From positions 1 through 64,000 of the forward strand of contig VMEE01000081.1 in the NCBI GenBank assembly GCA_009910795.1: a stretch of 64,000 nt of DNA. The letters are read 5' to 3'. Source of the stretch: Dehalobacter sp. CP (GTDB lineage: Bacteria > Bacillota_B > Desulfitobacteriia > Desulfitobacteriales > Syntrophobotulaceae). A program made the position numbers and the translations under genes. Under the pieces are notes generated by a model, which made no database searches, was not told where the DNA came from, and was given only the letters and a program-made list of their open reading frames with translations. Below are positions 1 through 44,849 of the stretch, piece by piece; positions within the stretch are counted from its first letter, which is position 1; each line of letters opens with the position of its first letter.

Positions 1-408
1 GAAACAGCTTATGACCAAATAAAAGTGAATGGTGTTTATCAGAACGTTGAACTCAGTGAGATATTTGCACAGATTTACAATAAAGCAAAGCAGCCAATAA
101 TGATAAGCGAATGGTCTTTTCCGGCGTATGATAGCGGACTCTCGTGTACCGTAGGGGCTGGGATGCGAGTAGATACGCAGACGGAGAGAGCAAAAGCCTA
201 TGAAATATATCAAAAAGCATTATTCAATATGCCGTTTCTTGTCGGTTCTGAATTTTTCATGTGGGTTGATCCTCCGGCTGAAGGACTAACAAGATCTTAT
301 AAGCTAGATACAAATTACGGACTAGTAAATGAAAAGGATGAACCTTATGCTTTGGTTACCAGTGTAGCGAAAGCAACAAATGGTAATGTGTATTCTCTTA
401 GAAATTAA
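1..408 (+). CDS. Glycoside hydrolase, C-terminal part (5' end outside window)
   Basis: The reading frame is open from base 1 and ends at TAA 406-408, so about 135 C-terminal residues are visible. The segment ISEWSFPA fits the strand-end acid of a TIM-barrel glycoside hydrolase. The following stretches (GAGMRVDTQTERA, FFMWVDPPAEG, NYGLVNEKDEPY) resemble the C-terminal barrel of agarase-like (GH50/GH42-type) enzymes. The substrate cannot be told. Stop and riboswitch are only about 25 bases apart, so readthrough from this gene could feed the downstream leader. The family call rests on recalled sequence pattern only. Confidence 0.6.
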   Translation, partial: ETAYDQIKVNGVYQNVELSEIFAQIYNKAKQPIMISEWSFPAYDSGLSCTVGAGMRVDTQTERAKAYEIYQKALFNMPFLVGSEFFMWVDPPAEGLTRSYKLDTNYGLVNEKDEPYALVTSVAKATNGNVYSLRN

Positions 409-431
409 AGATAATTATGGGTAGAACTTAT

Positions 432-506
432 TACTGATAATGGCAAACCTGTTGAAAAGCAGGGACGCAAAGCTAGAGGGCCTGTAAAATGGCAGCCAGC
501 TACCAA
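432..506 (+). promoter_or_regulatory. c-di-GMP-I (GEMM-I) riboswitch upstream of precursor peptide 1
   Basis: The aptamer hallmarks occur in order: GGCAAACC (442-449), a GAAA tetraloop in the P2 arm, GGGACGCAAAGC (462-473), GGGCCT, then GGCAGCCAG-CTACC (491-504). These are the conserved blocks of the GEMM-I class. The P1 closing helix looks weak (one C-A mismatch) and the P3 arm is short, so the aptamer may be divergent. It lies 65 bases before the ATG of the first precursor peptide. No clear terminator stem is visible; a T-run follows at 514-521. Confidence 0.75.
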
Positions 507-570
507 AAATGAAGTTTTTTTATTTCCCATAGAAAAATATTAAATTAAAAATATTAAAAGGCAGAGAAGA

Positions 571-738
571 ATGATGAAAGCGTATGTAAAACCAAGCTTG
601 GAGTACATTGAATTAAGAGCGGAGGAAAGCCTGGCCTGCACAGCATCGACAACAATTAAAATACCAGTACCTTCTGATCTGGGGAATAACGGTAATCACA
701 ATGGCTGGGGCAACGGTAATGGTAGAGGCAGGCATTAA
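571..738 (+). CDS. RiPP-like precursor peptide 1 (55 aa)
   Basis: A 55-residue ORF with two in-frame ATGs (571 and 574) behind a purine-rich AGAGAAG site. The N-terminus AYVKPSLEYIELRAEES has the Tyr-x-x-Pro pattern used in lasso-peptide leaders for binding the PqqD-like recognition domain, and it resembles the two other small peptides at 3886 and 4100. The tail contains one Cys and is rich in Gly and Asn. It sits directly behind a c-di-GMP riboswitch and ahead of the decayed kinase gene. The product is not a peptide I recognise. Calling it a precursor rests on leader similarity and context. Confidence 0.65.
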   Translation: MMKAYVKPSLEYIELRAEESLACTASTTIKIPVPSDLGNNGNHNGWGNGNGRGRH

Positions 739-832
739 GAAAAACGCGTAAAAGGGATAGTACAGCTTGCAAAAATATGGTATAATTTATTGAACCTGTC
801 AATATTAGGCAGGTTCATTTCCTTGAGAAGGG

Positions 833-1717
833 TTGATTGTTATTAATTATTATCACTACCAAATTGCCGGGTTGACGATCTGAGTAGCTTCGGAGCGGCG
901 GGAAGGTTTCAGATACTCAAAGCATTTGCAGTAAAATAATACCCGGAATTCATCGACCTGGAGATTGTGACAAGAGCAAGTGATTGCATTGCAGTTCCTC
1001 AAGGGAAGATCCTTGTAGATGACCGCGCCAAATGGGTTTATATTTCTGATGGTGATTACCCTACCTCCATTTATTTGACGGACGATACGACCGGAAAAAT
1101 GATTGCGAGAGCTGATGCGAATGCGGACTGGAGCCGGGATGAGATAACTTACTTGGACAATGAACAGATGATTGATCGATTGTTTCCGGCTTCCTGATGG
1201 AGATTCTATTTCGCAACCGTTTGCTTTTAAACACGGTATCGTCATCCATGCTTCAGTAATTTCCTGGGAAGGAAATGGCATTCTTTTTACAGCCCCATCG
1301 GACCGGGAAGTCCACTCAAGCAAGGCTGGGTCAGAACATATGCAAGCAAGGGTTTTAAATGATGACCGACCGGCAATACGCTTCGCGGATCAGCAACCCT
1401 ATATCTATGGTACACCTTGGAGCGGATCGAAAACACTCTATTTCAACGGATCTGCGCCTTTGCAAGCCGTCGTCTTTCTGGAGCAGGCACCTGAGAATCA
1501 GATTACATGGGTCTCTTCAGCGCAGGCTGCAGCCAAGATCATCCCACGCTGTTTTTTACCGTATTATGATAAAACTATCATGGAAATGTGCTTACATACG
1601 TTGTCTGAGGTACTTTTAGGTGTAGGCGTATACAGTTTGAAATGCCGTCCTGACAGGGAGGCCGTGGAGATCTTGCAGCAGTGTTTGCTCCATCAAGTTG
1701 ACAGGGAAATATTTTGA
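833..1717 (+). pseudogene. Decayed HPr-kinase-like gene (paralogue of 4351-5241)
   Basis: Translation matches the intact kinase-like gene at 4351-5241 in pieces: YQIAGL near 857-874, GIVIHAS and FTAP in the middle, then VLNDDRPAIR, YGTPWSG, APLQAVVFLEQA, RCFLPYYD and LKCRPDREAVE. The frame is broken by an early frame change near 880, a TAA at 937-939, a frame change near 1195, and clustered single-base losses around 1297-1355. These last replace the expected P-loop SGxGKST with SDREVHSSK. An ATP-binding kinase cannot be made as written. The divergence suggests an old paralogue, not a fresh copy. The 545-base distal frame (1172-1717) remains open and ends just before the VanZ gene. Confidence 0.8.
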
Positions 1718-1740
1718 ACAGAATATGGTTGAGGTAACAA

Positions 1741-2265
1741 ATGAAAAGCAGCATCATAAGAAGAATAATCGGGACTGTTGGCTTGTTTATTGTGCTTGTG
1801 TTTCTGGTCTTTCTTTCATGGAAGCTGAGCAGTCAGACAGGAACGCAGTCGAATCATTTAAGCATCAGGATCGCTGACCAGATGATTGATTGGCTGGATC
1901 GATATTTTGATCTGGACAGAGGAGATACGTTTTGGAGAGTCACCTTTAATCAACTGCTCAGGAAAATAGCCCATTTCATTGAATATGCACTCATTGGCAC
2001 CGTGATGTGCATCATGCTGAATATCGCTTTTAACCGTGTTGTGCCGGCAGCTGTGATTTCGGTATTACTCTCGCCGCTTTTCGGGATCATTGATGAGTAT
2101 CACCAAAGATTCTCTGCGATGCGCACGCCGCGGATCTTGGATATTTACATCGATACTGCCGGGGTTTTGACGGGTGTTCTACTTGTCACGCTTTTATTTG
2201 GAATAGTTCATTATATTAAAAAGTTGAAAAGACGGATCTGGGAACTGGAACAGAGAAATAAATGA
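1741..2265 (+). CDS. VanZ-family membrane protein
   Basis: A 174-residue protein with about four hydrophobic segments, near residues 10-27, 72-93, 98-115 and 137-160. It carries the VanZ-like pattern RKIAHFIEYALIG followed by DEYHQRFSAMRTPRILD and a DTAG motif. VanZ proteins are small membrane proteins; one confers low-level teicoplanin resistance, but most have no proven role. A GAGGT site precedes the ATG. Its place between the decayed kinase and the PqqD-like gene suggests it belongs to the peptide locus, perhaps in immunity or membrane handling. That is inference. Confidence 0.8.
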   Translation: MKSSIIRRIIGTVGLFIVLVFLVFLSWKLSSQTGTQSNHLSIRIADQMIDWLDRYFDLDRGDTFWRVTFNQLLRKIAHFIEYALIGTVMCIMLNIAFNRVVPAAVISVLLSPLFGIIDEYHQRFSAMRTPRILDIYIDTAGVLTGVLLVTLLFGIVHYIKKLKRRIWELEQRNK

Positions 2266-2346
2266 AATTTTTAAAAATAATTGTATGTTTTTTTAATTCT
2301 ATATGGTAATATTTAGTTATTATGCGTATATGAGGAGTGATAGTAA

Positions 2347-2613
2347 TTGAAATTAAAAGAGGGATTCTTATTACGCGAAGTAGCCGGTCAATGGGTTGTT
2401 GTGCCATTGGGTGAGCGCGTTGTTGAATTTAATGGCATTATGACACTCAGTGAAAGCGGCGCGCTTCTGTGGGGGAAGTTGAAAGAGGGTACAACCGAGG
2501 AAGAGCTTCTTCAGGTTTTGATGGCGGAATACAGCGTTGACGAAGATATCGCCAAGAAGGATATTCAGGAATTTATCCAAAGCATTAAAGATAAAGGATT
2601 GATTGAAGCGTAG
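2347..2613 (+). CDS. PqqD-like peptide-recognition protein (RRE)
   Basis: An 88-residue protein starting at TTG 2347 behind AGGAGTGA. It has the PqqD fold pattern: a beta-rich N-terminus (FLLREVAGQWVVVPLGE), the LSESGALLWGKL motif where many PqqD proteins have the conserved N/S-x-x-G/A-x-x-I/L-W, and a helical C-terminus ending in LIEA. PqqD-type proteins bind the leader of a ribosomal peptide and present it to the modifying enzyme. It lies 33 bases before the radical SAM gene, a usual partner, and the nearby peptides carry the YxxP leader motif such domains bind. Confidence 0.88.
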   Translation: MKLKEGFLLREVAGQWVVVPLGERVVEFNGIMTLSESGALLWGKLKEGTTEEELLQVLMAEYSVDEDIAKKDIQEFIQSIKDKGLIEA

Positions 2614-2646
2614 TAAAGTGAACACCGATAAGGAGATTTCTGTCTG

Positions 2647-3780
2647 ATGGCAAAAACTTGGAATGAGCTCTATCTCAATTTGGCATTGGAGAGCAAAAGA
2701 AGAAAAGAGTTTATTGCTTCTTCCTTTGAGCTGACAGCAAGGTGCAATTTGCAATGTAAGATGTGCTATGTGCGTTATGCCGCGAATGATAAACAGGCCA
2801 AAGCAAAAGAGTTAACAACAGAACAATGGGTTCGATTGGCTGAAGAGGCCCGGGATGCCGGACTGCTGTTTCTTACGCTGACCGGCGGAGAGGTGCTGTT
2901 ACGCGAAGATTTTAAAGAGTTATATGAAAAATTGATGAACTTGGGTTTAATCATTAAAATATTCACCAACGGAACACTGATTACCCCGGAATTTGTCAAT
3001 TGGCTTTCCAGAATTCCGCCGAAACTTGTGAGTATTACGTTGTATGGTGCTTCCCGTGATACCTACAAGAAGGTAACTGGATTTGCCGATGGATATGACC
3101 GGGCGACGCGGGCTGTTGATCTGTTAATGGACAAAGGGATCCCTACGGAGATCAAAACTACGGTTACACAGTATAATAGAGCGGACTTTGACGAGATCCA
3201 TAATTTTGCCCTGAAGAGGAAATGCGTTCTGGGCGTGGTCAATTATATCGCGCCGGTCCGTGAAGGCTGTAATACCGCTTCTTGCGAATGCCGCCTTTCT
3301 CCGGAAGAATTGCTGAATTTTGAAATCCATATGACGGAGAGAGGGAAGATCGGCTTTGACAACGAAATCATTGGGGAAACGGAAAAAACCGTGAATCCGA
3401 ACGATGATGCTGTGGCTGAGGCAATGCGGGAAATCCTTGCATCAAAGGCCCAGACTGATGAAAACTTTGCCTTTCAATGTATGTCCGGATCTTGTACCGG
3501 TTGGGTGAATTGGGACGGCAGCATGGCTCCCTGCGGGATCATGGGGGAACCCAAAGTGTATCCGCTTATCTCCGGATTTCAAAATGCCTGGGTGGAGTTG
3601 AAACAAAAGTGTGCCCAGATCCCGGTCTGCAAGGCGTGCAAGGAATGCGAATATCAAGTATTATGTGAACACTGCCCTGGAAGACTGTATCAGGAAACCG
3701 GAAGCTATGACAAGCCGGCGCCGTATCTCTGTGAACTGGCGAAAAGAAGGACAGACTATAATAACCAAAAAAACAACTGA
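2647..3780 (+). CDS. Radical SAM/SPASM peptide-modifying enzyme
   Basis: A 377-residue enzyme. The 4Fe-4S motif CNLQCKMC (C-x3-C-x2-C) lies at residues 33-40, followed by LTLTGGEVLLR (the GGE motif for SAM binding). The C-terminus holds a Cys-rich SPASM region: CMSGSC, then CAQIPVCKACKECEYQVLC, CPG, and a last Cys near residue 365. SPASM enzymes bind auxiliary clusters and modify peptides, for example by Cys-thioether, C-C or epimerisation chemistry. The gene follows the PqqD-like gene and is followed by two Cys-containing peptides, so they are the probable substrates. The exact reaction cannot be read from the sequence. Confidence 0.88.
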   Translation: MAKTWNELYLNLALESKRRKEFIASSFELTARCNLQCKMCYVRYAANDKQAKAKELTTEQWVRLAEEARDAGLLFLTLTGGEVLLREDFKELYEKLMNLGLIIKIFTNGTLITPEFVNWLSRIPPKLVSITLYGASRDTYKKVTGFADGYDRATRAVDLLMDKGIPTEIKTTVTQYNRADFDEIHNFALKRKCVLGVVNYIAPVREGCNTASCECRLSPEELLNFEIHMTERGKIGFDNEIIGETEKTVNPNDDAVAEAMREILASKAQTDENFAFQCMSGSCTGWVNWDGSMAPCGIMGEPKVYPLISGFQNAWVELKQKCAQIPVCKACKECEYQVLCEHCPGRLYQETGSYDKPAPYLCELAKRRTDYNNQKNN

Positions 3781-3819
3781 GTTCACTAATTGTTTCTAAA
3801 AATATACAAAAAATAGGAC

Positions 3820-3848
3820 TTGAAAAAACTGGAATCTGCGAGTATACT
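3820..3848 (+). promoter_or_regulatory. Sigma-A-type promoter for precursor peptides 2 and 3
   Basis: TTGAAA (3820-3825), a 17-base spacer, and TATACT (3843-3848). It lies 38 bases before the ATG at 3886 and gives the two precursor peptides their own start of transcription, separate from the enzyme genes upstream. Confidence 0.75.
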
Positions 3849-3885
3849 CCTTTTATAGGTTATTATTTAAATGGGGTGAAGAAGG

Positions 3886-4062
3886 ATGAAGTGTTATTTT
3901 AAACCCGAGTTTCATTTTATTTCATTACGTGTTGAAGAAAGCTTTGCAGCTGTGGGAGTAGGAAGCCAGCAATGTACAACGACCGGGTCTTGCCCGGATA
4001 ATGTGCCATTTTGTACATTTACTTATGGCGGAAAGGTTTTTACTGCCAACAACCAAGAATAG
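3886..4062 (+). CDS. RiPP-like precursor peptide 2 (58 aa)
   Basis: A 58-residue ORF from ATG 3886 with a GAAGGA site just upstream. The leader CYFKPEFHFISLRVEESFA aligns with the peptides at 571 and 4100 (YxxPxF-x-x-L-x-x-EE-x-x-A). The presumed core begins around residue 21 and contains Cys30, Cys36 and Cys43 (C-x5-C-x6-C) among Thr, Ser and Gly, suited to Cys-based radical SAM cross-links. A near-consensus promoter lies directly upstream. It has no similarity I recognise to a characterised product. Confidence 0.75.
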   Translation: MKCYFKPEFHFISLRVEESFAAVGVGSQQCTTTGSCPDNVPFCTFTYGGKVFTANNQE

Positions 4063-4099
4063 GATTTTTTGATTATTTACATGTTAAGAGGTGATTATA

Positions 4100-4240
4100 T
4101 TGAAACAGTACAATAAGCCAGAATTTGAATTTGTACAGCTCTCTTCTGAAGATGAGTTTGCTGTAGTGCAGCAAGGTTCTGTATGTGATTACGTAGGTAT
4201 CTGTATTATTGACGGTGTACAGCCTAGAACGAATGCATAA
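4100..4240 (+). CDS. RiPP-like precursor peptide 3 (46 aa)
   Basis: A 46-residue ORF starting at TTG 4100 behind AGAGGTG. The leader QYNKPEFEFVQLSSEDEFA matches peptide 2 closely. The short presumed core contains Cys29 and Cys35, again spaced C-x5-C, then IIDGVQPRTNA. It lies 37 bases after peptide 2 and before a terminator-like hairpin. The shared leader and C-x5-C core spacing with a different core suggest one enzyme set acting on several substrates. Confidence 0.7.
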   Translation: MKQYNKPEFEFVQLSSEDEFAVVQQGSVCDYVGICIIDGVQPRTNA

Positions 4241-4267
4241 GCCGAGCAGTACCAAATGGAAGTACGT

Positions 4268-4305
4268 ATAGCATGTCCTTTGATGGATGTGCTATTCTGT
4301 TTTTC
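4268..4305 (+). terminator. Terminator or attenuator after the precursor peptides
   Basis: ATAGCATGTCC (4268-4278), loop TTTGAT, GGATGTGCTAT (4285-4295): an 11-pair stem with two G-U pairs, followed by TCTGTTTTT. It separates the peptide genes from the kinase-like gene and would make peptide mRNA more abundant than the downstream message. Confidence 0.65.
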
Positions 4306-4350
4306 GATCCTGTTGTTTAAAAAGGTATACCTGCAAAAGGAGTGTTTTTG

Positions 4351-5241
4351 TTGCCCAAGTATCAAGTCGCAGGACTCGTCATTCACATGGATGAAAGCAC
4401 CCCCGCTGAGCTTTTCGAAGGGCTAGTTGACTACAATGTGTCGGAACCGCAGGTCGCTGATTTATGCTTTACCTATCAAACCAGTGAGCAAATTGATTTG
4501 CCGCAAGGGGAAAATTTCTCTGACGAGAGCTCTGGTTATAAATGTATTAAAAAACCGAATGCAGCCGGGTTTTATTTTTATACAAGGAAATATGGCTCTG
4601 TGGGGGAAATCCTTGTACTGTTAGATGTTGATGCCGCGTGGCGAAATGTACGGCTAACCTGTGCAGCAATTCACGAAAAAAATGAGCTGGAAGAATCCTA
4701 TGTCCGAATGAAGCTGCGCCATACAGCATTTACCCTAATGGGGATTGTCTTCAGGCATGCCTTGTTAAAACAACAAGGACTGGTAATTCACGCTTCTGCG
4801 ATAAAGTGGCAGGATAAAGCAATCATGTTTACAGCGCCGTCCGGAACGGGGAAATCTACACAGTCCAGGCTTTGGCAGGAACATAAGGAGAATGTGCTTG
4901 TGTTGAACGATGACAATCCTGCTGTGCGGATTATGGAAGACCACGTGATTGTCTATGGAACCCCCTGGAGCGGGTCATCAAATATTAATACGAATGATTC
5001 TGCACCCTTGTCAGCAGTGATTATTCTGGAACAAGCAGCCGAGAATTCTATTCGTAGGATGGATCTCAGGGAGGCGATTATTCAGTTCATGCCAAGAGCT
5101 TTCCTGCCGTTTTTTGATCAGGAACATATGAACGAGGCGATGCGTATCTTTGAGAAAATAGTCTCTTCCGTACCGGTGTATTTGCTGCGCTGCAGACCGG
5201 ATCAAGAGGCGGTGGAGTTGGTATATCAGTGCATCAAGTGA
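4351..5241 (+). CDS. HPr-kinase/PEPCK-like protein of RiPP locus
   Basis: About 296 residues. TTG 4351 is chosen because the AAAAGGAG site (4335-4342) overlaps the GTG at 4342 and sits 8 bases from this TTG. A Walker A loop SGTGKST lies near residues 164-170, preceded by GLVIHASAI and followed by VLNDDNPAVR and YGTPWSGS, the pattern of HPr-kinase-like (PEPCK-fold) proteins found in lasso-peptide and related clusters. In paeninodin-type lasso clusters a related kinase phosphorylates the peptide. Here a phosphorylation or other ATP-dependent role on the peptides is inferred. Its stop overlaps the start of the signal-peptidase-like gene. Confidence 0.8.
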   Translation: MPKYQVAGLVIHMDESTPAELFEGLVDYNVSEPQVADLCFTYQTSEQIDLPQGENFSDESSGYKCIKKPNAAGFYFYTRKYGSVGEILVLLDVDAAWRNVRLTCAAIHEKNELEESYVRMKLRHTAFTLMGIVFRHALLKQQGLVIHASAIKWQDKAIMFTAPSGTGKSTQSRLWQEHKENVLVLNDDNPAVRIMEDHVIVYGTPWSGSSNINTNDSAPLSAVIILEQAAENSIRRMDLREAIIQFMPRAFLPFFDQEHMNEAMRIFEKIVSSVPVYLLRCRPDQEAVELVYQCIK

Positions 5242-5687
5242 AAAAAGTGAAAGCCAATGGCTTGTTTCCTGTAGTCTCGGATCTCCTCAGCCAGGGACAG
5301 GATGTCAGACTTCCCGTATCCGGCAGCAGCATGGTTCCGTTTTTGCGGGATGCAATCGATAGTGTGGAATTCTCCCAGGGCAGCTTCGACCAGATTAAAA
5401 GAGGAGATATTGTCCTGATTCGCAGAATGAATAGCTATTATGTCATGCATCGGGTTCTTAAAAAAAAGAAAGACCATTTTTTCATGGTAGGGGATGCCCA
5501 GCAATGGATTGAAGGTCCGCTGTATCCGGAACAAATCATCGCTGTCGTTCCCGCAATATGGCGGAAAGACAAACGTATTCCTTGCTCTGATCTTAGGCTG
5601 AAGACACTGGTTCATATTTGGCTGATTCTCAGGCCTTGCCGATACTTCATCATGAAAGTGTACCGGAAAATCCGCAAATTAATATAG
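5229..5687 (+). CDS. S24/S26 signal-peptidase-like protein
   Basis: 152 residues from GTG 5229 (GGAG 11 bases upstream); a GTG at 5238 overlapping the kinase stop as GTGA is an alternative. GSSMVPFL contains the expected catalytic Ser. MHRVL supplies the His of the Ser-His dyad typical of SipW/ER-type signal peptidases, where bacterial SipS-type enzymes have Lys. VGDAQQWIEGPL resembles the box E region (GD-x-N) but lacks the usual Asn pair. A hydrophobic segment is near the C-terminus. In this locus it could remove the leader of the peptides, since neither a C39 peptidase nor a lasso B2 protease is visible. That role is inference. Confidence 0.75.
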   Translation: MHQVKKVKANGLFPVVSDLLSQGQDVRLPVSGSSMVPFLRDAIDSVEFSQGSFDQIKRGDIVLIRRMNSYYVMHRVLKKKKDHFFMVGDAQQWIEGPLYPEQIIAVVPAIWRKDKRIPCSDLRLKTLVHIWLILRPCRYFIMKVYRKIRKLI

Positions 5688-5723
5688 ACAAGCCTCGGGA
5701 TTTTCTCGAAGCTTGTCTATATT
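5681..5723. terminator. Bidirectional terminator between convergent genes
   Basis: AATATAGACAAGC (5681-5693) pairs with GCTTGTCTATATT (5711-5723), with TCG/CGA pairing further in. The stem includes the stop codon of the signal-peptidase-like gene. It lies between that gene and the convergent secreted-protein gene ending at 5740. Confidence 0.75.
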
Positions 5724-5739
5724 ATTCATTCCCCTGAAA

Positions 5740-7446
5740 TCAGTTCACTTTCTCTAATTTTATAGCATCAGCGGCAGTATATCCCGGGGAAGAGCAGAGT
5801 ATCTTGATGTATTGATCGCTTCCTGCGGATAAAGCATAGGTGCCGATGAGGACCCAGGTACCGTTATTCTCCTGTTGATTGACCGTTTTACTCGTGTCCA
5901 CGCCTCCGTTGTATCTAATCTCGAGGGGGGCGGCAGCTGGCCTGGTGGAATCTGCTGTCCATCTCATATAGAGCTGATAGTTTCCTGACTCGATTATTGT
6001 CGGAACCCACATGGCCCATTTACCTTGATCGGCTCCGGCGGTACCGTCATTAAGAATATTGCTGCCGTAATAGCCGACGGATTGTGTAGTGATGGTCCAA
6101 GTGGAATTGCTTATAAAGCTGCTGTCGGTATTGTCCACAATAATAGGAGCTGTAGTCGATGAAGGAATGGTTTGTATGAGTTCAGCAGTTGATGGTGTTA
6201 ATTCACTCATTGAGGGATTGTTGATTACGGGAATTAGGGGGATGTCCTGATAGGCAGAACTAGCTACCTTAAGAATATTGCCTGTAGAAGCGGCCACAGT
6301 TGCGGAATCGCAGCCCAGACCGAAGTAAAAGTCACCATTCATTTCTTCAAAGGATCTGGCAAAGGTATCTGTATTAAAACGGAATACTTCGTTCCAAGTC
6401 TGAAGATCGGTGGTTTGGTAGACGACACTCGTGTAATTGCCGGCAGAATTTTTCACATTGGTTAACACATACAGACTGTTGCCTCTGATGAGCAGATCTG
6501 CAGGGACAGCCGAAGTCTCAGGGAATATCACCTTTGTGGATTCATTAATGCTTTTGGCAATATACATAGAATCGGGAAGCCAGTGAGAGGTGGTGATCCG
6601 GTTATTTAGATATACAAGTTTATTTTGGAAGGTTGTAGGTTTTTTCATATAGTAGACGTAGGACGAAGTGAGGCCATTGGCGAAATTGGTTGAATAGATC
6701 TGTCTGGCGGAGCTGCTGTCAGTGATTCCAAGCATTGAGACATACTTGGTGTATGATGTCGTGATCGAAGTTGGCTTCATGTACATCATCTTTCCTGAAG
6801 CATACAGTGTTTGATTCAACTCAAAGAGGGAAGTGGCCCAGGAACCATAAAATGTAAAGCCAAGAGGAACCCGGCTGGTCCAAGTTTTCCCCATATCATT
6901 GGAGACAAGAACTTCGCCCCAACCTGTTTTACTGGTTCCGCAGGCTGCATAAAGCTGACCGTTATAGAGTGCCATGTCGAAAACATGAAGTGCATTCGGA
7001 ATGGTTGCGTTTTTGAGCCATTGGTCATTATCTTCAAGGGTATAGAAATTGCCATTGTTCCAATCTCCCCGTGAATCGGTGCCAGGGATGTAAAGTTTGC
7101 CGTCCATTACTTTATATTGGGCGATTTCCTCTTCATCAACGGTATATTGCGTGATGAATTTTTGGGCGGATGGCTCATAGTAGATGACCGGGATCGGACC
7201 GGCGTTCGTATTAAAATCACCATGGGCGAGATAAATACGGTTGTTATAGACTTGCATGTCCCAGACATTCTTGGCAAAAGTAGCTTTGTTGAACGGGTTT
7301 CCCAGTAATTCGACCTGGGAGGTTACATCTTTCACTGTAGTCGCAGCAGAAACCATTTTATCGGTATGAACAGCGAAGCACGTGTTCACAATAAGTGTGA
7401 AGCTGAAGATTCCGGCGGCGATTCTTGTGATACTTTTCTTAATCAT
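5740..7446 (-). CDS. Secreted protein with propeller-like region and golvesin-type C-terminal domain
   Basis: 568 residues. The start is ATG at 7446 (MIKKSITRIAAG) behind AAGGAAGGG; an upstream ATG at 7488 lies inside the terminator stem and is rejected. A signal peptide is clear, with a hydrophobic core followed by VNTCFAV. Residues about 50-400 hold repeated short blocks with aromatic and Gly turns (VYNNRIYLAHGDF, LYNGQLYAACG), suggesting a beta-propeller. The last 130 residues (YGSNILNDGT, GNYQLYMRW, ADAIKLEKV) resemble the carbohydrate-binding golvesin/xanthan-lyase C-terminal domain. It is probably secreted and glycan-binding. A c-di-GMP riboswitch sits in its leader. Confidence 0.75.
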   Translation of the reverse strand: MIKKSITRIAAGIFSFTLIVNTCFAVHTDKMVSAATTVKDVTSQVELLGNPFNKATFAKNVWDMQVYNNRIYLAHGDFNTNAGPIPVIYYEPSAQKFITQYTVDEEEIAQYKVMDGKLYIPGTDSRGDWNNGNFYTLEDNDQWLKNATIPNALHVFDMALYNGQLYAACGTSKTGWGEVLVSNDMGKTWTSRVPLGFTFYGSWATSLFELNQTLYASGKMMYMKPTSITTSYTKYVSMLGITDSSSARQIYSTNFANGLTSSYVYYMKKPTTFQNKLVYLNNRITTSHWLPDSMYIAKSINESTKVIFPETSAVPADLLIRGNSLYVLTNVKNSAGNYTSVVYQTTDLQTWNEVFRFNTDTFARSFEEMNGDFYFGLGCDSATVAASTGNILKVASSAYQDIPLIPVINNPSMSELTPSTAELIQTIPSSTTAPIIVDNTDSSFISNSTWTITTQSVGYYGSNILNDGTAGADQGKWAMWVPTIIESGNYQLYMRWTADSTRPAAAPLEIRYNGGVDTSKTVNQQENNGTWVLIGTYALSAGSDQYIKILCSSPGYTAADAIKLEKVN

Positions 7447-7470
7447 TGGTCCCTTCCTTTCCAAACTAGA

Positions 7471-7504
7471 TAAAAATACAAAAAGCAACTGGTTCCCCAG
7501 TTGC
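7471..7504 (-). terminator. Riboswitch-controlled terminator (expression platform)
   Basis: Read on the minus strand: GCAACTGG (7504-7497), loop GGAA, CCAGTTGC (7492-7485), then TTTTTGTATTTTT. This is a perfect 8-pair intrinsic terminator 39 bases before the ATG. The same CCAGTTGC occurs at the 3' end of the upstream aptamer (7578-7571), so the GCAACTGG strand can pair with either copy. Confidence 0.85.
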
Positions 7505-7567
7505 CGACAGCTTAGTTTTTTATATTCATTCTAGCTGAAAAAAACAGATGACTATATAAAAACTAAT

Positions 7568-7646
7568 TTGGCAACTGGCTGTCATAGGGAATCCCCCTTA
7601 GACCCTTTAGCTTTGCGCCACAGCCTTTCGACTGCTTTGCCTTGAG
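7568..7646 (-). promoter_or_regulatory. c-di-GMP-I (GEMM-I) riboswitch of the secreted-protein gene
   Basis: Minus-strand reading gives, in order, AAGGCAAAGC, AGTCGAAAGGCT (GAAA tetraloop in P2), GTGGCGCAAAGC, GGGTCTAAGG, a CCC-closed P3 arm, and GACAGCCAGTTGCC. P1 closes as GGCAA/TTGCC. All core GEMM-I blocks are present. When ligand holds P1, the distal terminator at 7485-7504 is free to form. Without ligand the aptamer 3' strand can pair with the terminator 5' strand. The arrangement therefore predicts repression by c-di-GMP. Confidence 0.88.
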
Positions 7647-7680
7647 CAAATGTTCCTGTAGATCAATCCTTCCATTTTCC

Positions 7681-7709
7681 ATTTTATTCCCAGTTGGAAC
7701 AAAACGCAA
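7681..7709 (-). promoter_or_regulatory. Putative sigma-A promoter upstream of the riboswitch
   Basis: On the minus strand TTGCGT (7709-7704), a 17-base spacer, and TAAAAT (7686-7681). Transcription would start about 25-30 bases before the aptamer, as expected for a leader riboswitch. Confidence 0.55.
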
Positions 7710-7942
7710 TATTTTACTTTACTTTTGTTTAAAATTTATGTATTTTTTGTAATAAAGTTACTATATCAAGCCGAATGACAAAATTCAATAGGATAAACGG
7801 ACTAGGGTGTTGGGATTTTTGTCCCATTTTTAAAAAAAAGAAAATATTTTAGCGAATATTGCATAAAAAGAATTATCGAGTAGAAATTTTAACGGAACTA
7901 TGGCACTATAAAGTATGCTTCCAAAAATATCAGGAGAAAAGA

Positions 7943-9667
7943 ATGATTATTCAAGATGAAATTAAAAAAGGAATAGTTTTTGTTCGTTGGATAAAACCGG
8001 ATGTGCTCCCCTTTCTTCCCAGGCTCATCGTCATTCTGCTGATTACTTCGACAGGGGCACTTTTTGGTGTTGCAAACGCCATACTCTCCAAGCATATGAT
8101 TGACTACGCGATTGCAGGAGAACTGGCTTATGCCGGTATGGCCGGTGCTGCTTTAGGCGGTGCGATACTTCTTAATATCATGTTATCGATTGCCGGGTCA
8201 CTGCTTTCTGTACGCGTCAGCGAAGGCTTTTCCAACGCCCTGAGGCAGCGTTTTTTCAAAAGGATGATGGTGACAGAATGGCTGCCGCTTTCGAACTATC
8301 ATAGCGGGGATCTGATGACACGGTTGACAAGTGATGTCAATAACATCTCCAGTTGTATTATTAGTGTGATCCCGGGTATCGTGGCATTAGGCGTGCAGTT
8401 AGTCGGTTCTTTTGTAACCTTGCTTTATTATGAGCCGCGATTGGCAGTAATTGCGTTCATACTGGGACCTTCAACCGTGTTGTTCAGCCGGATCTGGGGC
8501 CGAAAGATGAAGAACTTGAATCATAAAGTACAGGAATCGGAGAGTATCTACCGCTCGTTCATTCAGGAAGCCATCCAAAATTTCATCATTACGAAAGCGT
8601 TTCGGTTGGAAAACAGGAATACAGATACCTTGCAGGGATTGCATCAGAACCGTATGAAGTGGGTGATTCAGAGAAACAAGACGACCTTATCTGCCAATAC
8701 GATAATTTCGCTGGGATATTGGGCAGGTTACCTGGTTGCGTTTGGCTGGGGGATCGTCCGTTTGTCTCAAAAGGCAATCTCCTATGGAACATTGACTGCT
8801 TTTCTGACATTGGTTCAGCAGGTCCAAGGGCCTTTTGTCAGCTTGGCCAGGGCCTTTCCACAAATCATCGCGATGCTGGCGTCAACGGAGCGACTGCAGG
8901 AACTGGAAAAGATCCAAATGGAGAGGCGGGAAGGGCAGGTCCCGCAAGAGAAAAATGTCGGTATTCGTTTCCGGCAGGTCAGCTTCTATTATTTAGAGGA
9001 GAAAGAAAAGCCGGTCCTGGATAAGATTTCGGTGGATATAGCACCCGGTGAACTGGTAGCATTGGTAGGGTCTTCCGGGGTTGGAAAAACGACGTTGATC
9101 AGGCTTTTGCTGGCTTTGGTTAGACCTTCGGATGGCGAAGTCTATTTTACAGATGCGGCCGGTCAAAAATATGAAGTCACTGCTGTGACCCGGGATTGGA
9201 TTACCTATGTTCCGCAAGGAAATACATTGTTCAGCGGCACCATTGCCGACAACCTGCGGAGCGGCAAGCTCAGTGCGACGGCGGAAGAGATGAAAAGTGC
9301 CCTTCAGGCTGCACGTGCCTGGGACTTTATCCAAGAGCTGCCACATGGAGTCAATACGGTCATCGGAGAGGACGGGCATGGTCTTTCCGAGGGACAAGCG
9401 CAACGGATCGCGATTGCCAGGGCCTTCTTAAAAAAAGCCCCTGTGATGATTCTGGACGAAGCGACGTCTGCCCTGGACATGGAAACAGAGTTAGAAGTAC
9501 TCAAGGCTATTCAAAATTTTAGCAGCAGGAGCACTTGTCTGCTCATTACCCATCGTCAGACGGCATTAAGGATGTGTTCGCGGATTTTGAAGATAGATAA
9601 CGGAAAGGTCTTCGTTGAATCAAAATTAAAATATTTACCACAAGCGGAGGATCATAAAGAAGAATAA
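7943..9667 (+). CDS. ABC transporter, fused permease/ATPase (peptide exporter candidate)
   Basis: 574 residues from ATG 7943, chosen over a TTG at 7859 because CAGGAG lies 7 bases upstream. An N-terminal six-helix export-type permease domain is followed by an ATPase domain with Walker A GSSGVGKTT (about residue 376), signature LSEGQAQR, Walker B VMILDEATS (about 501) and a switch His in LLITHRQTA. It is a half-transporter that would work as a dimer. There is no N-terminal C39 peptidase domain, so leader removal must be done by another protein. It closes the peptide locus and is the obvious export candidate, though lipids or drugs are possible substrates. Confidence 0.85.
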   Translation: MIIQDEIKKGIVFVRWIKPDVLPFLPRLIVILLITSTGALFGVANAILSKHMIDYAIAGELAYAGMAGAALGGAILLNIMLSIAGSLLSVRVSEGFSNALRQRFFKRMMVTEWLPLSNYHSGDLMTRLTSDVNNISSCIISVIPGIVALGVQLVGSFVTLLYYEPRLAVIAFILGPSTVLFSRIWGRKMKNLNHKVQESESIYRSFIQEAIQNFIITKAFRLENRNTDTLQGLHQNRMKWVIQRNKTTLSANTIISLGYWAGYLVAFGWGIVRLSQKAISYGTLTAFLTLVQQVQGPFVSLARAFPQIIAMLASTERLQELEKIQMERREGQVPQEKNVGIRFRQVSFYYLEEKEKPVLDKISVDIAPGELVALVGSSGVGKTTLIRLLLALVRPSDGEVYFTDAAGQKYEVTAVTRDWITYVPQGNTLFSGTIADNLRSGKLSATAEEMKSALQAARAWDFIQELPHGVNTVIGEDGHGLSEGQAQRIAIARAFLKKAPVMILDEATSALDMETELEVLKAIQNFSSRSTCLLITHRQTALRMCSRILKIDNGKVFVESKLKYLPQAEDHKEE

Positions 9668-9900: not shown

Positions 9901-10815
9901 ATGAAAGTTACTAAAGCCGTAATCCCTGCAGCAGGACTGGGGACAAGATTTCTGCCAGCGACGAAATCTTTGCCGAAAGAGATGCTGCCGATTGTTGATA
10001 AGCCGACCATTCAATATATTGTAGATGAGGCGATTGCTTCCGGAATCAAAGATATCTTGATTATTATCGGCAGAGGAAAAGGGTCCATTGTCGATTACTA
10101 TGACCGCTCACCTGAATTGGAAGCTCATCTGGAGAAGAATGGCCAATTGGAAATCCTGGAAAAAATAAAGAATCTCTCCTCTTTAGCCAACATTCACTAT
10201 ATCAGGCAGAATGAAGCATTGGGGCTGGGACATGCCATTTCTTGCGCCAAGTCTTTTGTGGGCAAAGAGCCGTTTGCTGTCCTGCTCGGAGACGATATTA
10301 TCAAGTCCAAGGTGCCGGCAATCAAACAGCTGATCGATGTTGCCTCAGAGACATCGTCGACCGTGATCGGCATTCAGGAAGTACCACATAGTGAGGTACA
10401 TAAATATGGGATTGTTGATCCGCAGGATAACTGGGGAAATGTCTGGGAAGTTAAAGACTTGGTTGAAAAGCCATCTGCGTTGATAGCCCCTTCCAGGCTC
10501 GCTATTATGGGCAGGTATTTGATCAACTCTTCAATATTTGAATATCTTGAAAAAGTCCCGGCTGGAGCAGGAGGGGAAATCCAGCTTACAGATGCGCTGC
10601 GGGCGCAAAGTAAACACGAACAAGTATACGCTTGCCTCTTAGAAGGAAAACGGTACGATGCAGGCGATAAGCTTGGCTACTTAAAGGCGACGGTTGAATT
10701 TGCACTGGAATCCCCGAATCTTGGGGACAAGTTTGAAAAATATCTGGATGAACTGTATATTGAAAGAAATAAAGCAAAACAAACTAAAAAGAGAGGCGAT
10801 TCTGCTGCTTCCTAA
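9901..10815 (+). CDS. galU: UTP-glucose-1-phosphate uridylyltransferase
   Basis: 304 residues from ATG 9901 behind TTGGAGG. The nucleotidyltransferase signature AAGLGTRFLPATKSLPKEM lies near residues 10-28, with LLGDD for metal and nucleotide binding, VEKP, and GAGGEIQLTDAL, all typical of GalU. It makes UDP-glucose from UTP and glucose-1-phosphate for cell-wall, capsule and glycolipid synthesis. An AT-rich region of about 230 bases precedes it. The intergenic hairpin downstream was later split by an IS3 element. Confidence 0.93.
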   Translation: MKVTKAVIPAAGLGTRFLPATKSLPKEMLPIVDKPTIQYIVDEAIASGIKDILIIIGRGKGSIVDYYDRSPELEAHLEKNGQLEILEKIKNLSSLANIHYIRQNEALGLGHAISCAKSFVGKEPFAVLLGDDIIKSKVPAIKQLIDVASETSSTVIGIQEVPHSEVHKYGIVDPQDNWGNVWEVKDLVEKPSALIAPSRLAIMGRYLINSSIFEYLEKVPAGAGGEIQLTDALRAQSKHEQVYACLLEGKRYDAGDKLGYLKATVEFALESPNLGDKFEKYLDELYIERNKAKQTKKRGDSAAS

Positions 10816-16692: not shown

Positions 16693-16910
16693 TGTCTTCC
16701 CTTCCTCTTTCCATATCTTGTTCCAAATACTTCTGGAGCATGTTTTAGAAGCTATTACAGCATATTGTATGAAAAATAGGTTGAGCTTGTTTAAGATATT
16801 CCATTATTTAGAGAAAATGCTTGCTTTTCTTCACAATAAATTTCCCAAAATCATATTAATAAGCACGTACTAAAATTGGATAATATTAGAAATAAAAAGG
16901 AGGTATTGTG

Positions 16911-18299
16911 GTGTCTGATGACTACGAAAATAGTAAAAAGATATTGGATAAAATATCTTTGGCAAATTTCTTATGTCACTTGCAGATGATCCAAGATGAA
17001 TTGCGTAATAATCAGACAGAAACTGGATATGCAGCTGAGTCCGGACTATACGCACGTTTTGCTACAATTAAACAAGCTGTGAATACAACAATCATATGTA
17101 TTGGTGTATTGTCGGGACTCTTCTTAGGTGGGGTGACAATAAAAATTCTTCACAAGAGCAAGGTGGACAATCAAACCAGTCCCAAAGATCAGGTAGGTAG
17201 AAAAAAGATTGTGATCGTAAGAAATCTGAAAATAAGCGTAACTGCGGTAGGCGCCCTGTTTTTCTTTGGCAGTTCGTTTAAATTCTTCTGCAAGAAAAAA
17301 GGCTGCTGTCCCAAGCATCGGCCTGATTGCAAGAAAATCCTGAAACTCTTGGAAAGCCCGACATTTGGGCTTGCAGAAATCAAAACAGAGATATTTTCGA
17401 TAGAAAAAGCAGTGAATCATCCGTTTTTTGGATTGCAGGAGATTAAGTCCGAAGTTCAGGTTATTGAATTCACGGTTGAGAATATCGAAAATAAGCTAGA
17501 CAGTCCGACGTTTGGGTTGGCAGAGATCAAGACAGAAGTCTTCAGTATTGGCACGCTGGTTGAAGGCATTTTCACGAGCATGATGGGAGCAACGTTTGGT
17601 CTGCAGGAGATTAAGTCCGAAGTGGCCGCGATTGAAGGTGCGGTGTTCAGTCCGACATTCGGGTTGGCAGAGATCAAGACGGAAGTCTTCAGTATCGGCA
17701 CGCTGGTTGAAGGCATTTTCACGAGTATCGTAGGATCGACTTTCAGTCTGCAGGAGATTAAGTCCGAAATAGCCGCAATCGAAGGGGCAGTGTTCAGTCC
17801 AACATTTGGCTTAGCAGAAATTAAAACTGAAATCTTCCAGATCCAAAACGCTGTCTTGAGTCCCACCTTTGGTTTGCTGGAAATAAAATCTGAAGTAGCA
17901 GCGATAGAAGCAAGTCTAGGTGCTGCCAACGCCCAGACTTCAGGACCGTTCAAACTCAGTAATGCCAGTGTAGGGAATATCCTAGATGTTAAAGTCATGA
18001 ACAACAGTGCATCCACTATCGGGCCCATAAATGTTTCGGTCTTTAATGTAGATGTCTGTCCCAAGACACTTCTCAGTCCAACTTTCAAATCGACGGTTAC
18101 CTTGCCACCTTATTGTACGACAAGCATCTTTTTCAATCAAAAATTGCCCAACACCCAGATAGAAATCGAAGTATCCGGCGCGACCCCAGGAAAGGTATTT
18201 ATTTGGTCAAGAACAACACCTACTGTGGTCAGTGACCAAATTGTAGACCCACTTTTCAGCAGTAATTATCTACCGCTGCAACAGCCTCTTGATCCTTGA
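16911..18299 (+). CDS. Membrane-anchored tandem-repeat protein of unknown function
   Basis: 462 residues from GTG 16911 (AAAGGAGG 7 bases upstream; GTG 16908 is possible). The N-terminal part is charged, followed by two hydrophobic segments (about residues 48-72 and 104-128) with a basic Cys-rich stretch (KKKGCCPKHRPDCKK). Residues about 145-345 are built from units of the form SPTFGLAEIKTE or GLQEIKSEV followed by an IE-x-AV helix turn. Two consecutive 147-base copies (17502-17648, 17649-17795) are nearly identical. A beta-rich C-terminal domain of about 110 residues ends the protein. It is perhaps a surface or spore-layer protein; I do not recognise the family. It sits next to glycosyltransferase genes. 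Confidence 0.8.
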   Translation: MSDDYENSKKILDKISLANFLCHLQMIQDELRNNQTETGYAAESGLYARFATIKQAVNTTIICIGVLSGLFLGGVTIKILHKSKVDNQTSPKDQVGRKKIVIVRNLKISVTAVGALFFFGSSFKFFCKKKGCCPKHRPDCKKILKLLESPTFGLAEIKTEIFSIEKAVNHPFFGLQEIKSEVQVIEFTVENIENKLDSPTFGLAEIKTEVFSIGTLVEGIFTSMMGATFGLQEIKSEVAAIEGAVFSPTFGLAEIKTEVFSIGTLVEGIFTSIVGSTFSLQEIKSEIAAIEGAVFSPTFGLAEIKTEIFQIQNAVLSPTFGLLEIKSEVAAIEASLGAANAQTSGPFKLSNASVGNILDVKVMNNSASTIGPINVSVFNVDVCPKTLLSPTFKSTVTLPPYCTTSIFFNQKLPNTQIEIEVSGATPGKVFIWSRTTPTVVSDQIVDPLFSSNYLPLQQPLDP

Positions 18300-43351: not shown

Positions 43352-43637
43352 AAAGATATTTCTCCTTTTTGCCTGTCACGGCGTTAATTATTTTGCAGAC
43401 CTATATTTGTTTTGAAAATAAAGGTTCCTACTGATAATATAGACATTAATTCTTAAAATTATATTAGTGTAACTTACATTATCCATTTTTGATTTTATGC
43501 TGTATAATTGTACGAAGAGCCAAGCATCCTCATTGTCCCAATAGCATCAATTATCAGAGAATTATCAATGGGAAAAATCCGGGGTACCGTTTATAAGTAA
43601 AGGTTTTATTTAATTGGAAATAGTTGGGGGCATAAAC

Positions 43638-44828
43638 ATGATTAGTGTTACGAAGCTGTTATTTGATACCGAATATTTTGGAGATTCCTTGCGCTATAGT
43701 AAGCATGCTCATGGGGCCAGAAACGGAGCAACAGGTGATTCAGGACCGGTGGTTGTCTGGAATTCAACCCGGACTTGCAATTTACAGTGCGTCCATTGCT
43801 ATATGGATTCAGATTCTCGGAAATATCACGGAGAACTGACAACGGAAGAAGCCAGGAGATTCATTGATGATTTAGCGGAATTTCACGTTCCTGTCTTGCT
43901 TTTTTCAGGCGGAGAGCCTTTGATGCGACCCGATTTTTTTGAACTTGCCGCCTATACGGCTCAGAAAGGAATCAGACCAACTTTATCTACGAACGGTACG
44001 TTGATAACACCGGAAGCTGCCCGGCGCATCAAAGAAATCGGCGTAGGTTATGTTGGAGTATCTCTTGACGGTCTGAGAGCGGTGAATGACAAGTTTAGGG
44101 GCAGAGAAGGGGCTTTTGCGGCTGCTATGGGAGGGATCCGGAACTGTGTGGAGGCAGATCAGCGCGTTGGTCTGCGCTTTACGATTAACCGTCATAATTA
44201 TGAGGAACTGGATCGCATTTTTGATTTTATTGAAGCAGAAAAAATTGACCGTGTCTGTTTTTACCATCTGGTATACTCCGGACGGGGTAAGCAAATGGTC
44301 GCTGATGATATTGCTCCTGAAGAGTCGAGACAGGCGCTCGATACCATTATCCGCAGAACAAGAGACTTTGAAAAACGCGGACTGCACAAGGAAATCCTGA
44401 CAGTTGATAATCACGCCGATGGTGTTTATCTCTATTTGCGGGCTTTATGTGAAGATCCGGCCAGAGCGGAGAAAATAAAGACACTCATCGGCTGCAATGG
44501 CGGAAATCGTTCTGGGATTGCGTTCGGAGAAGTTGATCCTTCAGGGCATGTACATCCGGATCAGTTTACGCAGCATATCTCGTTTGGCAATGTCCGAGAG
44601 AGAAAGTTCGGAGATATCTGGACTGACTTGAGCCAACCAGTGCTGGCAGGTTTGAAAGACCGTAAACCGCTTCTCAAAGGGCGATGTGCCGAGTGCCAGT
44701 ATTTAGATTTCTGCAACGGTAATTTCCGTACCAGGGCAGAGGCTGTGACAGGTGATTTTTGGGAATCTGATCCGGCCTGTTACTTAACGGATGAAGAGAT
44801 CGGAAAAAAGACTGCAGTTAATGATTGA
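43638..44828 (+). CDS. ahbC: Radical SAM heme-biosynthesis protein AhbC/NirJ1-like (12,18-didecarboxysiroheme deacetylase)
   Basis: 396 residues from ATG 43638 (GGGGGC upstream). The radical SAM motif CNLQCVHCYMD lies near residue 50, then LFSGGEPLMRPDFFE. The C-terminus has SPASM-type Cys: GCNGGNRSG, then CAECQYLDFCNGNFRTRAE. AhbC removes the two acetate side chains of didecarboxysiroheme to give Fe-coproporphyrin III. Its position with ahbD and a fused ahbAB supports the alternative heme route over heme d1 synthesis. Confidence 0.9.
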   Translation: MISVTKLLFDTEYFGDSLRYSKHAHGARNGATGDSGPVVVWNSTRTCNLQCVHCYMDSDSRKYHGELTTEEARRFIDDLAEFHVPVLLFSGGEPLMRPDFFELAAYTAQKGIRPTLSTNGTLITPEAARRIKEIGVGYVGVSLDGLRAVNDKFRGREGAFAAAMGGIRNCVEADQRVGLRFTINRHNYEELDRIFDFIEAEKIDRVCFYHLVYSGRGKQMVADDIAPEESRQALDTIIRRTRDFEKRGLHKEILTVDNHADGVYLYLRALCEDPARAEKIKTLIGCNGGNRSGIAFGEVDPSGHVHPDQFTQHISFGNVRERKFGDIWTDLSQPVLAGLKDRKPLLKGRCAECQYLDFCNGNFRTRAEAVTGDFWESDPACYLTDEEIGKKTAVND

Positions 44829-44849
44829 CGTTAGGAGAGGAAGAAGAAT

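Follow-up and report, generated by a model that had tools for sequence, protein, structure and literature searches.

Linear polyphosphorylated peptides (LPPs), reported in May 2026 (Popov et al. 2026, PMC13381572), are the closest described system to the gene cluster considered here. According to the main text of that report, their parts are LppB, a recognition element for ribosomally synthesized and post-translationally modified peptides (a RiPP recognition element, or RRE); the kinase LppK, which phosphorylates Ser3 of the core; the MsbA-like LppD; the NTP transferase LppN; and LppS, a SipW-like peptidase (S29/H68/D93) that depends on LppB. Cleavage of the signal peptidase I (SpI) kind is RRE-dependent, and phosphorylation of serine requires HprK. 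The authors give the role of the peptides as unknown and offer biofilms as an untested idea. Neither "radical" nor "SPASM" appears anywhere in the main text. A cluster with parts of this kind, and a radical SAM/SPASM gene besides, lies at the left end of the stretch of Dehalobacter sp. CP DNA analysed here (VMEE01000081.1, positions 1-64,000; the whole 64,000 nt is called the window).

I propose that this is an LPP-like RiPP cluster to which a radical SAM/SPASM modification of cysteines has been added, and that it is under the control of cyclic di-GMP (c-di-GMP). The proposal is probably right, with its chemistry read from the genes. What is new is the combination: a radical SAM/SPASM gene and two tandem precursors bearing C-x3-G-x-C, set upon a known LPP-type core. 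The PqqD-like protein would bind the YxxP leaders and pass the precursors to the enzymes. The radical SAM enzyme would modify peptides 2 and 3 in their Cys-bearing cores, the likeliest change being thioether links at C-x3-G-x-C, and a kinase resembling HPr kinase (HPrK) would phosphorylate Ser just behind the leader. A signal-peptidase-like protease with a Ser-His-Asp triad, aided by the PqqD-like protein, would cut near a conserved Ala at position 18 from the leader Tyr, and the ABC protein would export the product, perhaps with the steps in this order. A c-di-GMP riboswitch would set expression of the cluster together with that of neighbouring secreted and glycan-related genes. The features are as follows.

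433-508, + strand: c-di-GMP-I-GGC riboswitch aptamer, directly 5' of peptide 1 (Rfam RF03167, 66.1 bits, gathering score 59, E 2.1e-13)
571-738, + strand: precursor peptide 1, with YxxP leader (leader profile E 3e-11); core CTASTTIKIP..., Gly/Asn-rich, without a Cys pair
about 952-1687, + strand: HPrK-like pseudogene (tblastn matches in frames 3, 2 and 1)
1741-2265, + strand: VanZ-like membrane protein (PF04892, 59.8 bits)
2347-2613, + strand: PqqD-like RRE (PF05402, 60.5 bits, cut-off 23.4)
2647-3780, + strand: radical SAM/SPASM peptide maturase (PF04055, 86.9 bits; CX3CX2C and seven SPASM cysteines)
3886-4062, + strand: precursor peptide 2, with YxxP leader; core contains QCTTTGSC as well as a third Cys
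4100-4240, + strand: precursor peptide 3, with YxxP leader; core with VCDYVGIC
4342-5241, + strand: HPrK-like kinase (P-loop APSGTGKST; kinase alignment; PEPCK/HPrK-type fold)
5229-5687, + strand: S26/SipW-type signal-peptidase-like protease, putative leader protease (Ser34, His74, Asp89; TIGR02228 E 1.3e-5, below cut-off)
5740-7488, - strand: protein with Golvesin C-terminal domain, probably secreted (PF25275, 93.5 bits)
7567-7651, - strand: c-di-GMP-I riboswitch aptamer, 5' of the Golvesin-domain gene (RF01051, 76.8 bits, gathering score 35)
7859-9667, + strand: MsbA-like ABC exporter (PF00664 and PF00005; best NCBIfam match MsbA, 301.6 bits, cut-off 602)
9901-10815: nucleotidyltransferase, GalU-like in appearance (PF00483), next along the window after the cluster

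An earlier note on this DNA had described much of the set, and its description stands. The three small open reading frames (ORFs) with YxxP leaders are where it placed them; the PqqD-like gene directly precedes the SPASM enzyme, each with its Pfam match; the kinase-like gene overlaps the S26-like gene by 13 bases; and the Ser-His pair of the peptidase is joined by an Asp, all three invariant in 54 of 54 aligned rows. No C39 domain accompanies the exporter among the best 25 of 28 Pfam matches, and purpose-made profiles for the lasso B2 protease and cyclase give 0 matches in the window. To this are added two c-di-GMP riboswitches, the broken first HPrK gene and the VanZ-like gene. For peptide 3 the ORF list has a GTG start at 4091; TTG at 4100 is preferred for its better-placed ribosome-binding site.

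How widely is the gene set shared? A protein search with the kinase gave 380 relatives, and the 120 matches listed carry Pfam PF27840. A scan of named genomes with the kinase alignment gave at least 595 stretches with the pattern, 588 of them confirmed, and the best 80 were kept, making 79 distinct loci; kinase matches were found in 13 of 100 relatives searched. The scan loci, the stretches from kinase-matching relatives and the window, less four duplicates (L104, L106, L109 and L111, of L023, L024, L032 and L025), make up the 89 loci annotated with purpose-made profiles. L-numbers denote loci (stretches) and G-numbers genomes; G001 is the nearest relative among the genomes compared, in a single contig, and L102, within it, is a near copy of the window. 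Genes for PqqD, radical SAM, HPrK and S26 proteins lie on the same strand within 5.5 kb in at least 17 of the 89 loci, at least 14 of them with an ABC gene as well. Both counts take in the window and L102 (L063 has another gene order), and they are lower bounds because many stretches are short contigs. S26 and PqqD genes near HPrK are commoner (53 of 98 HPrK rows), and among these rows is a Bacteroidales clade of 12 without radical SAM.

Then there are the leaders. A profile of 21 residues, iterated from 15 seeds, was searched over the 89 loci (the first 20 kb of the window and the 88 others). It finds 53 leader peptides at E ≤0.1 and 55 at E 1, and reversed sequences of the same loci give 0 at E 1. 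The 53 include the 15 seeds and three near-identical copies in L102, peptide 1 having its own copy there, and all but one (L026 7122) lie no more than 4 kb from an HPrK gene on the same strand; there are none within 4 kb on the opposite strand. Because 53 peptides stand against none in the decoys, the leaders are not the work of chance. The three YxxP peptides of the window are real, and random ORFs absent from relatives, which the earlier note had named as telling against its reading, are ruled out.

Counts at the level of the core use 50 peptides, the three L102 copies being dropped. Position 18, counted from the leader Tyr, is Ala in 44 of them, and in 43 a Ser falls among the eight residues that follow it. 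By analogy with LPP, cleavage would fall near Ala18 and phosphorylation on the Ser behind it. The leader ends here in EExxA, in place of LPP's FET; FET is absent from the three window leaders, which depart from the LPP consensus YxxPxVLxHQxIxFETxxS although YxxP is present. A pattern scan of the 89 loci finds FE[TSNQ] leaders only in L103, the second radical SAM cluster of G001 (FES), and in L113 of G092 (FEN and also FET); both are radical SAM clusters, and intermediate leader forms thus exist. In L107 (9058/9345), L108 (9084/9410), L105 (10541/10809) and L024 (7504/7839) a peptide of the peptide 1 type is paired with a second leader peptide; the former has a core rich in His, Pro and Gly and the latter ends in a basic FWxxxxRK-like tail.

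The cysteines follow the radical SAM gene. (L102, as a near copy, is left out of these counts and of the kinase, PqqD and radical SAM trees.) Taking radical SAM and HPrK together, radical SAM is the nearest upstream enzyme for 26 of the 50 leader peptides. Two or more Cys beyond the first core residue are found in 25 of those 26 and in 1 of the 24 others, the exceptions being L064 7764, where the radical SAM gene upstream is a different one, 4.3 kb away, and L026 7122. The motif C...[G/Y]-x-C occurs in 20 of the 26 (19 with Gly) and in none of the 24. Two tandem Cys peptides are present in 10 of the 15 radical SAM loci that have peptides. In the window, L023, L024 and L105 peptides of both kinds occur together, and Cys pairs are confined to those beside radical SAM. 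In the kinase tree (a quick tree without HPrK rows under 230 residues or the window's broken HPrK) the cysteine state matches the radical SAM state at all 27 HPrK genes that have a peptide nearby. Kinship among the loci (L027 is nearly a copy of L028) makes the Fisher values for the association nominal.

As for the enzyme itself, CX3CX2C and the seven SPASM cysteines are invariant in 15 aligned sequences. Its best match among solved structures by sequence is SkfB (E 5.8e-16). The predicted structure (predicted local distance difference test, pLDDT, 86) falls nearest to SuiB, SkfB, PqqE and AnSME, with the epimerase EpeE also among the neighbours, and none of the 25 curated NCBIfam matches listed reaches its cut-off. 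Fold neighbours of a model do not settle the reaction. An alternative view is that the enzyme makes no thioether at all, but rather a C-C or C-N cross-link, an epimerisation or something else, the cysteines serving later for a disulfide or for metal binding. SuiB, PqqE and EpeE, standing alongside SkfB, lend this some support, as does the lack of a curated family at cut-off. It is nevertheless somewhat unlikely, considering how closely the cysteines track the radical SAM gene while the residues between them vary. A radical SAM enzyme acting on the Cys-bearing cores of peptides 2 and 3, and forming thioethers at their cysteines, is most likely, judging from the sequences.

The remaining machinery can be set beside that of LPP. 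The AlphaFold2 model of the kinase (pLDDT 93.4) matches phosphoenolpyruvate carboxykinase (PEPCK; E 7e-7) and HprK/P (E 1.4e-5) by Foldseek, with a TM-score ≤0.45 by query length and a large root-mean-square deviation; a sequence-profile search of solved structures gives 0 matches at E 0.001. Tyr62, Asp72 and Phe76 of the window PqqD align with Tyr, Asp and Phe of LppB chain 9x8z and have the spacing of LppB Y60, D70 and F74, the 18-residue shift in chain numbering being taken for a tag. These LppB residues contact the leader Tyr and Pro (PMC13381572). Taken together, RRE, kinase, protease and exporter read as machinery of the LPP type, not as a lasso hybrid.

Does the kinase act on the same peptides as the radical SAM enzyme? 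The broken HPrK gene beside peptide 1 corresponds to single open frames in L023, L105 and L107. In G001 (L102) about 2.5 kb of extra DNA interrupts the same first HPrK gene, and the genes of that DNA read like an IS21-type element; a VanZ-like gene also lies 3' of the first HPrK gene in L023. Conceivably there are two pathways sharing RRE, protease and exporter, the kinase working only on peptide 1 types and radical SAM only on peptides 2 and 3, with no doubly modified product. Each of the two peptide types has an HPrK gene of its own in L023 and L105; the kinase left in the window, its partner beside peptide 1 being broken, may now serve peptide 1; and a Ser four residues behind position 18 is kept in most peptide 1 types. 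Even so, I consider this unlikely: the Cys peptides are followed directly by the second kinase gene, and a Ser stands at most three residues ahead of the first Cys (GSxC, ASTC) in 21 of the 25 peptides of this kind.

The earlier note had left two alternatives, a radical SAM pathway with lasso-type leaders and a different protease, or a lasso locus that had lost two genes and taken in a new enzyme. Lasso B2 and cyclase profiles match 3 of the 89 loci (L031, L108 and L114), and the cyclase profile, built from the lasso loci found here, gives 0 matches in the window, L102 and L103. In L114, a lasso locus, the kinase is of a type of its own. L031 and L108 have lasso genes next to or interspersed with LPP-like ones, and a second PqqD and a second HPrK belong to the lasso part; L031 also has a radical SAM enzyme, and the two loci are natural tests of how pathways are told apart. 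The lasso kinases of all three form one clade, apart from the window kinase, with a value of 99 in the Shimodaira-Hasegawa-like approximate likelihood ratio test (SH-aLRT). That clade also holds one of the two kinases of L038, a contig of 5 kb on which no cyclase is seen; because the neighbours of its kinase are cut off, a truncated lasso cassette is possible there. The three lasso B1 (PqqD) proteins group apart from the window PqqD as well (support 81, from few columns). PF13471, the lasso B2 family, has no match in G001, G007, G040 or G044, all of which carry the radical SAM cluster; in other genomes with radical SAM beside HPrK it matches above the cut-off in G042, on another contig, and only below threshold in G049, G056 and G092. 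Lasso B2 and cyclase are likewise unseen in the stretches examined of 16 of the 17 loci with PqqD, radical SAM, HPrK and S26 genes, all but L031.

A degenerate lasso locus, one that had lost cyclase and B2 protease and acquired a radical SAM enzyme, can therefore be set aside as very improbable, and is largely refuted already, by the separate kinase clade and PqqD group, the lasso parts' own PqqD and HPrK in L031 and L108, and a gene set that recurs without lasso enzymes, despite the lasso-type YxxP leaders, the lasso cassettes that adjoin those two related loci, and TbiB1, a lasso B1 protein that is the nearest solved structure by sequence to the window PqqD. The other alternative holds in essence, a radical SAM pathway with lasso-type leaders and a different protease, shorn of the idea of a lasso hybrid, the machinery being LPP-type. 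A B2/cyclase pair in relatives, for which the earlier note had advised a search, does exist, but adjoins LPP-like genes in only 2 of the 89 stretches (L031 and L108). Lasso genes among conserved neighbours, which that note had counted against itself, are seen in these two stretches only; L038, whose lasso-clade kinase has its neighbours cut off, may be another case.

Both c-di-GMP aptamers of the window exceed their gathering scores over the whole aptamer model. With the gathering score as threshold, an Rfam scan of 24 sequences (the window plus 23 further loci out of 88) finds such riboswitches in six: the window, L102, L023, L033, L036 and L039. In L023 one precedes the first peptide and another lies at the edge of the stretch; in L033 one of class II lies just before PqqD, a narrow pass (54.8 bits against 53.5); in L036 it stands behind HPrK, before a large gene; and in L039 it is about 5 kb before PqqD. 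The 2.94 Mb of G001 yield at least 14 c-di-GMP-I matches, with 150 of 272 candidates scored; four of these matches fall inside 12 kb at this locus, and two of the four lie past the left edge of the window. In G001 the region upstream of the window has the look of an exopolysaccharide locus: Pfam confirms Wzz, NTP_transf_5, two GH42-like proteins and one Ig-like protein there, and the other names come from reading the sequence. Folding of 420-570 gives z -0.29, a terminator scan of 380-5800 lists none between aptamer and peptide 1, and the two scans give no on or off sense for the riboswitch. The cluster is probably switched by c-di-GMP, a signal known for controlling biofilms.

Several results weigh against the LPP-like reading with its added cysteine chemistry. 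The leader lacks the FET end, so the cut site may differ from that of LPP. No NTP transferase of the LppN type is seen among the window's cluster genes. I take LppN to belong to PF14907, and G001 carries a gene of that family on the opposite strand, outside the window, at 5.4 kb on the upstream side of peptide 1. The S26-like protease scores below curated cut-offs (TIGR02228, 25.1 of 51.85 bits, E 1.3e-5). Its triad matches the SipW-type Ser-His-Asp of LPP, and the P-loop and fold of the kinase agree with the HprK-like kinase of LPP, yet protease and kinase are set beside LppS and LppK from their published description. Among the four solved RREs that the PqqD profile matches at E 0.01, LppB scores lowest (E 7e-4), and with the window PqqD alone as query it is not found even at E 1. 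The exact spacing C-x3-G-x-C occurs in just 12 of the 26 peptides on the radical SAM side, and the tree offers only 2-3 independent contrasts of cysteines with radical SAM, too few for significance (independent-pairs test, 2 pairs, p 0.5). The cysteines could form disulfides or bind metal instead, the kinase may act on peptide 1 only, and 18 of the 24 scanned sequences have no c-di-GMP riboswitch at the gathering score.

The relatives include other arrangements. The 12 Bacteroidales triads of HPrK, S26 and PqqD (L052, L055, L057, L060, L077, L085, L089, L090, L093, L095, L097 and L098) show no convincing YxxP peptide in a pattern scan from 2.5 kb before to 3.5 kb behind the kinase. A second layout, with radical SAM behind HPrK, occurs in clostridial genomes (L045, L048, L061, L063, L071, L072, L083, L086, L087 and L101), and its radical SAM proteins form their own clade (SH-aLRT 100). 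Elsewhere in the window, two tandem radical SAM/SPASM-like genes precede a regulator-like gene (43614-45851, + strand) and branch far from the cluster's enzyme, and a protein at 16908-18299 (+ strand) has tandem repeats around SPTFGLAEIKTEVFSIG.

If the proposal is right, a second, radical chemistry would have been added to the leader-recognition platform of LPP. The family would also have a regulatory cue: in three distinct loci a c-di-GMP aptamer sits immediately 5' of the first peptide gene or of PqqD, two riboswitch classes being represented (one the narrow pass). Because related loci that share RRE, protease and exporter have either radical SAM and Cys cores or neither, a natural comparison is available. 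A broader claim, that this is a c-di-GMP-switched class of RiPPs whose secreted products, often paired and released by a signal-peptidase-type enzyme, bear both a radical SAM cysteine cross-link and (poly)phosphoserine, is doubtful at present, and with it the picture of a doubly modified matrix peptide that might be joined through phosphate to the exopolysaccharide encoded next door.

Among systems with a SPASM maturase and a Cys-bearing core, sactipeptides and ranthipeptides (e.g. SkfB, StsB) come to mind, SkfB being the best sequence match, but the window differs from them in its kinase, S26 leader protease, separate RRE and leader, and its thioether is conjectural. The SynChlorMet (SCM) cassette (TIGR04248-04251) has a PqqD-related ScmD, ScmC, matched by the window HPrK, and the radical SAM/SPASM proteins ScmE and ScmF, and is not known to include a signal-peptidase-like protease. 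Membership of the SCM or HprK-rel-A cassettes is rejected on NCBIfam scores under the cut-offs, those for SCM lying far under them (ScmC 26.9/125, ScmD 14.3/100, ScmE 96.3/400, ScmF 79/400). A literature search on SCM had no related papers among the matches listed, nor did any listed match (open-access, with few subscription papers) join an HPrK-type kinase, an SpI leader peptidase and radical SAM in one RiPP cluster; the comparison also took in parts of PMC4289311, PMC10352776 and PMC12710340. Lasso loci of the paeninodin type share [Y/W]xxP leaders, a PqqD-type B1 and an HPrK kinase (as described in PMC13381572), whereas the window is without cyclase or B2, and in the lasso loci of this set both kinase and B1 fall on separate branches. 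LPP, as its main text presents it, comes closest: a discrete PqqD/RRE, an HprK-like kinase, a SipW-type Ser-His-Asp leader peptidase, an MsbA-like exporter and YxxP leaders, in a polysaccharide locus and sometimes with a lasso cassette next door. The window departs from it in that no NTP transferase is seen inside the cluster and the leader ends in EExxA rather than FET, and adds to it a radical SAM/SPASM gene, tandem Cys-motif precursors and a c-di-GMP riboswitch.

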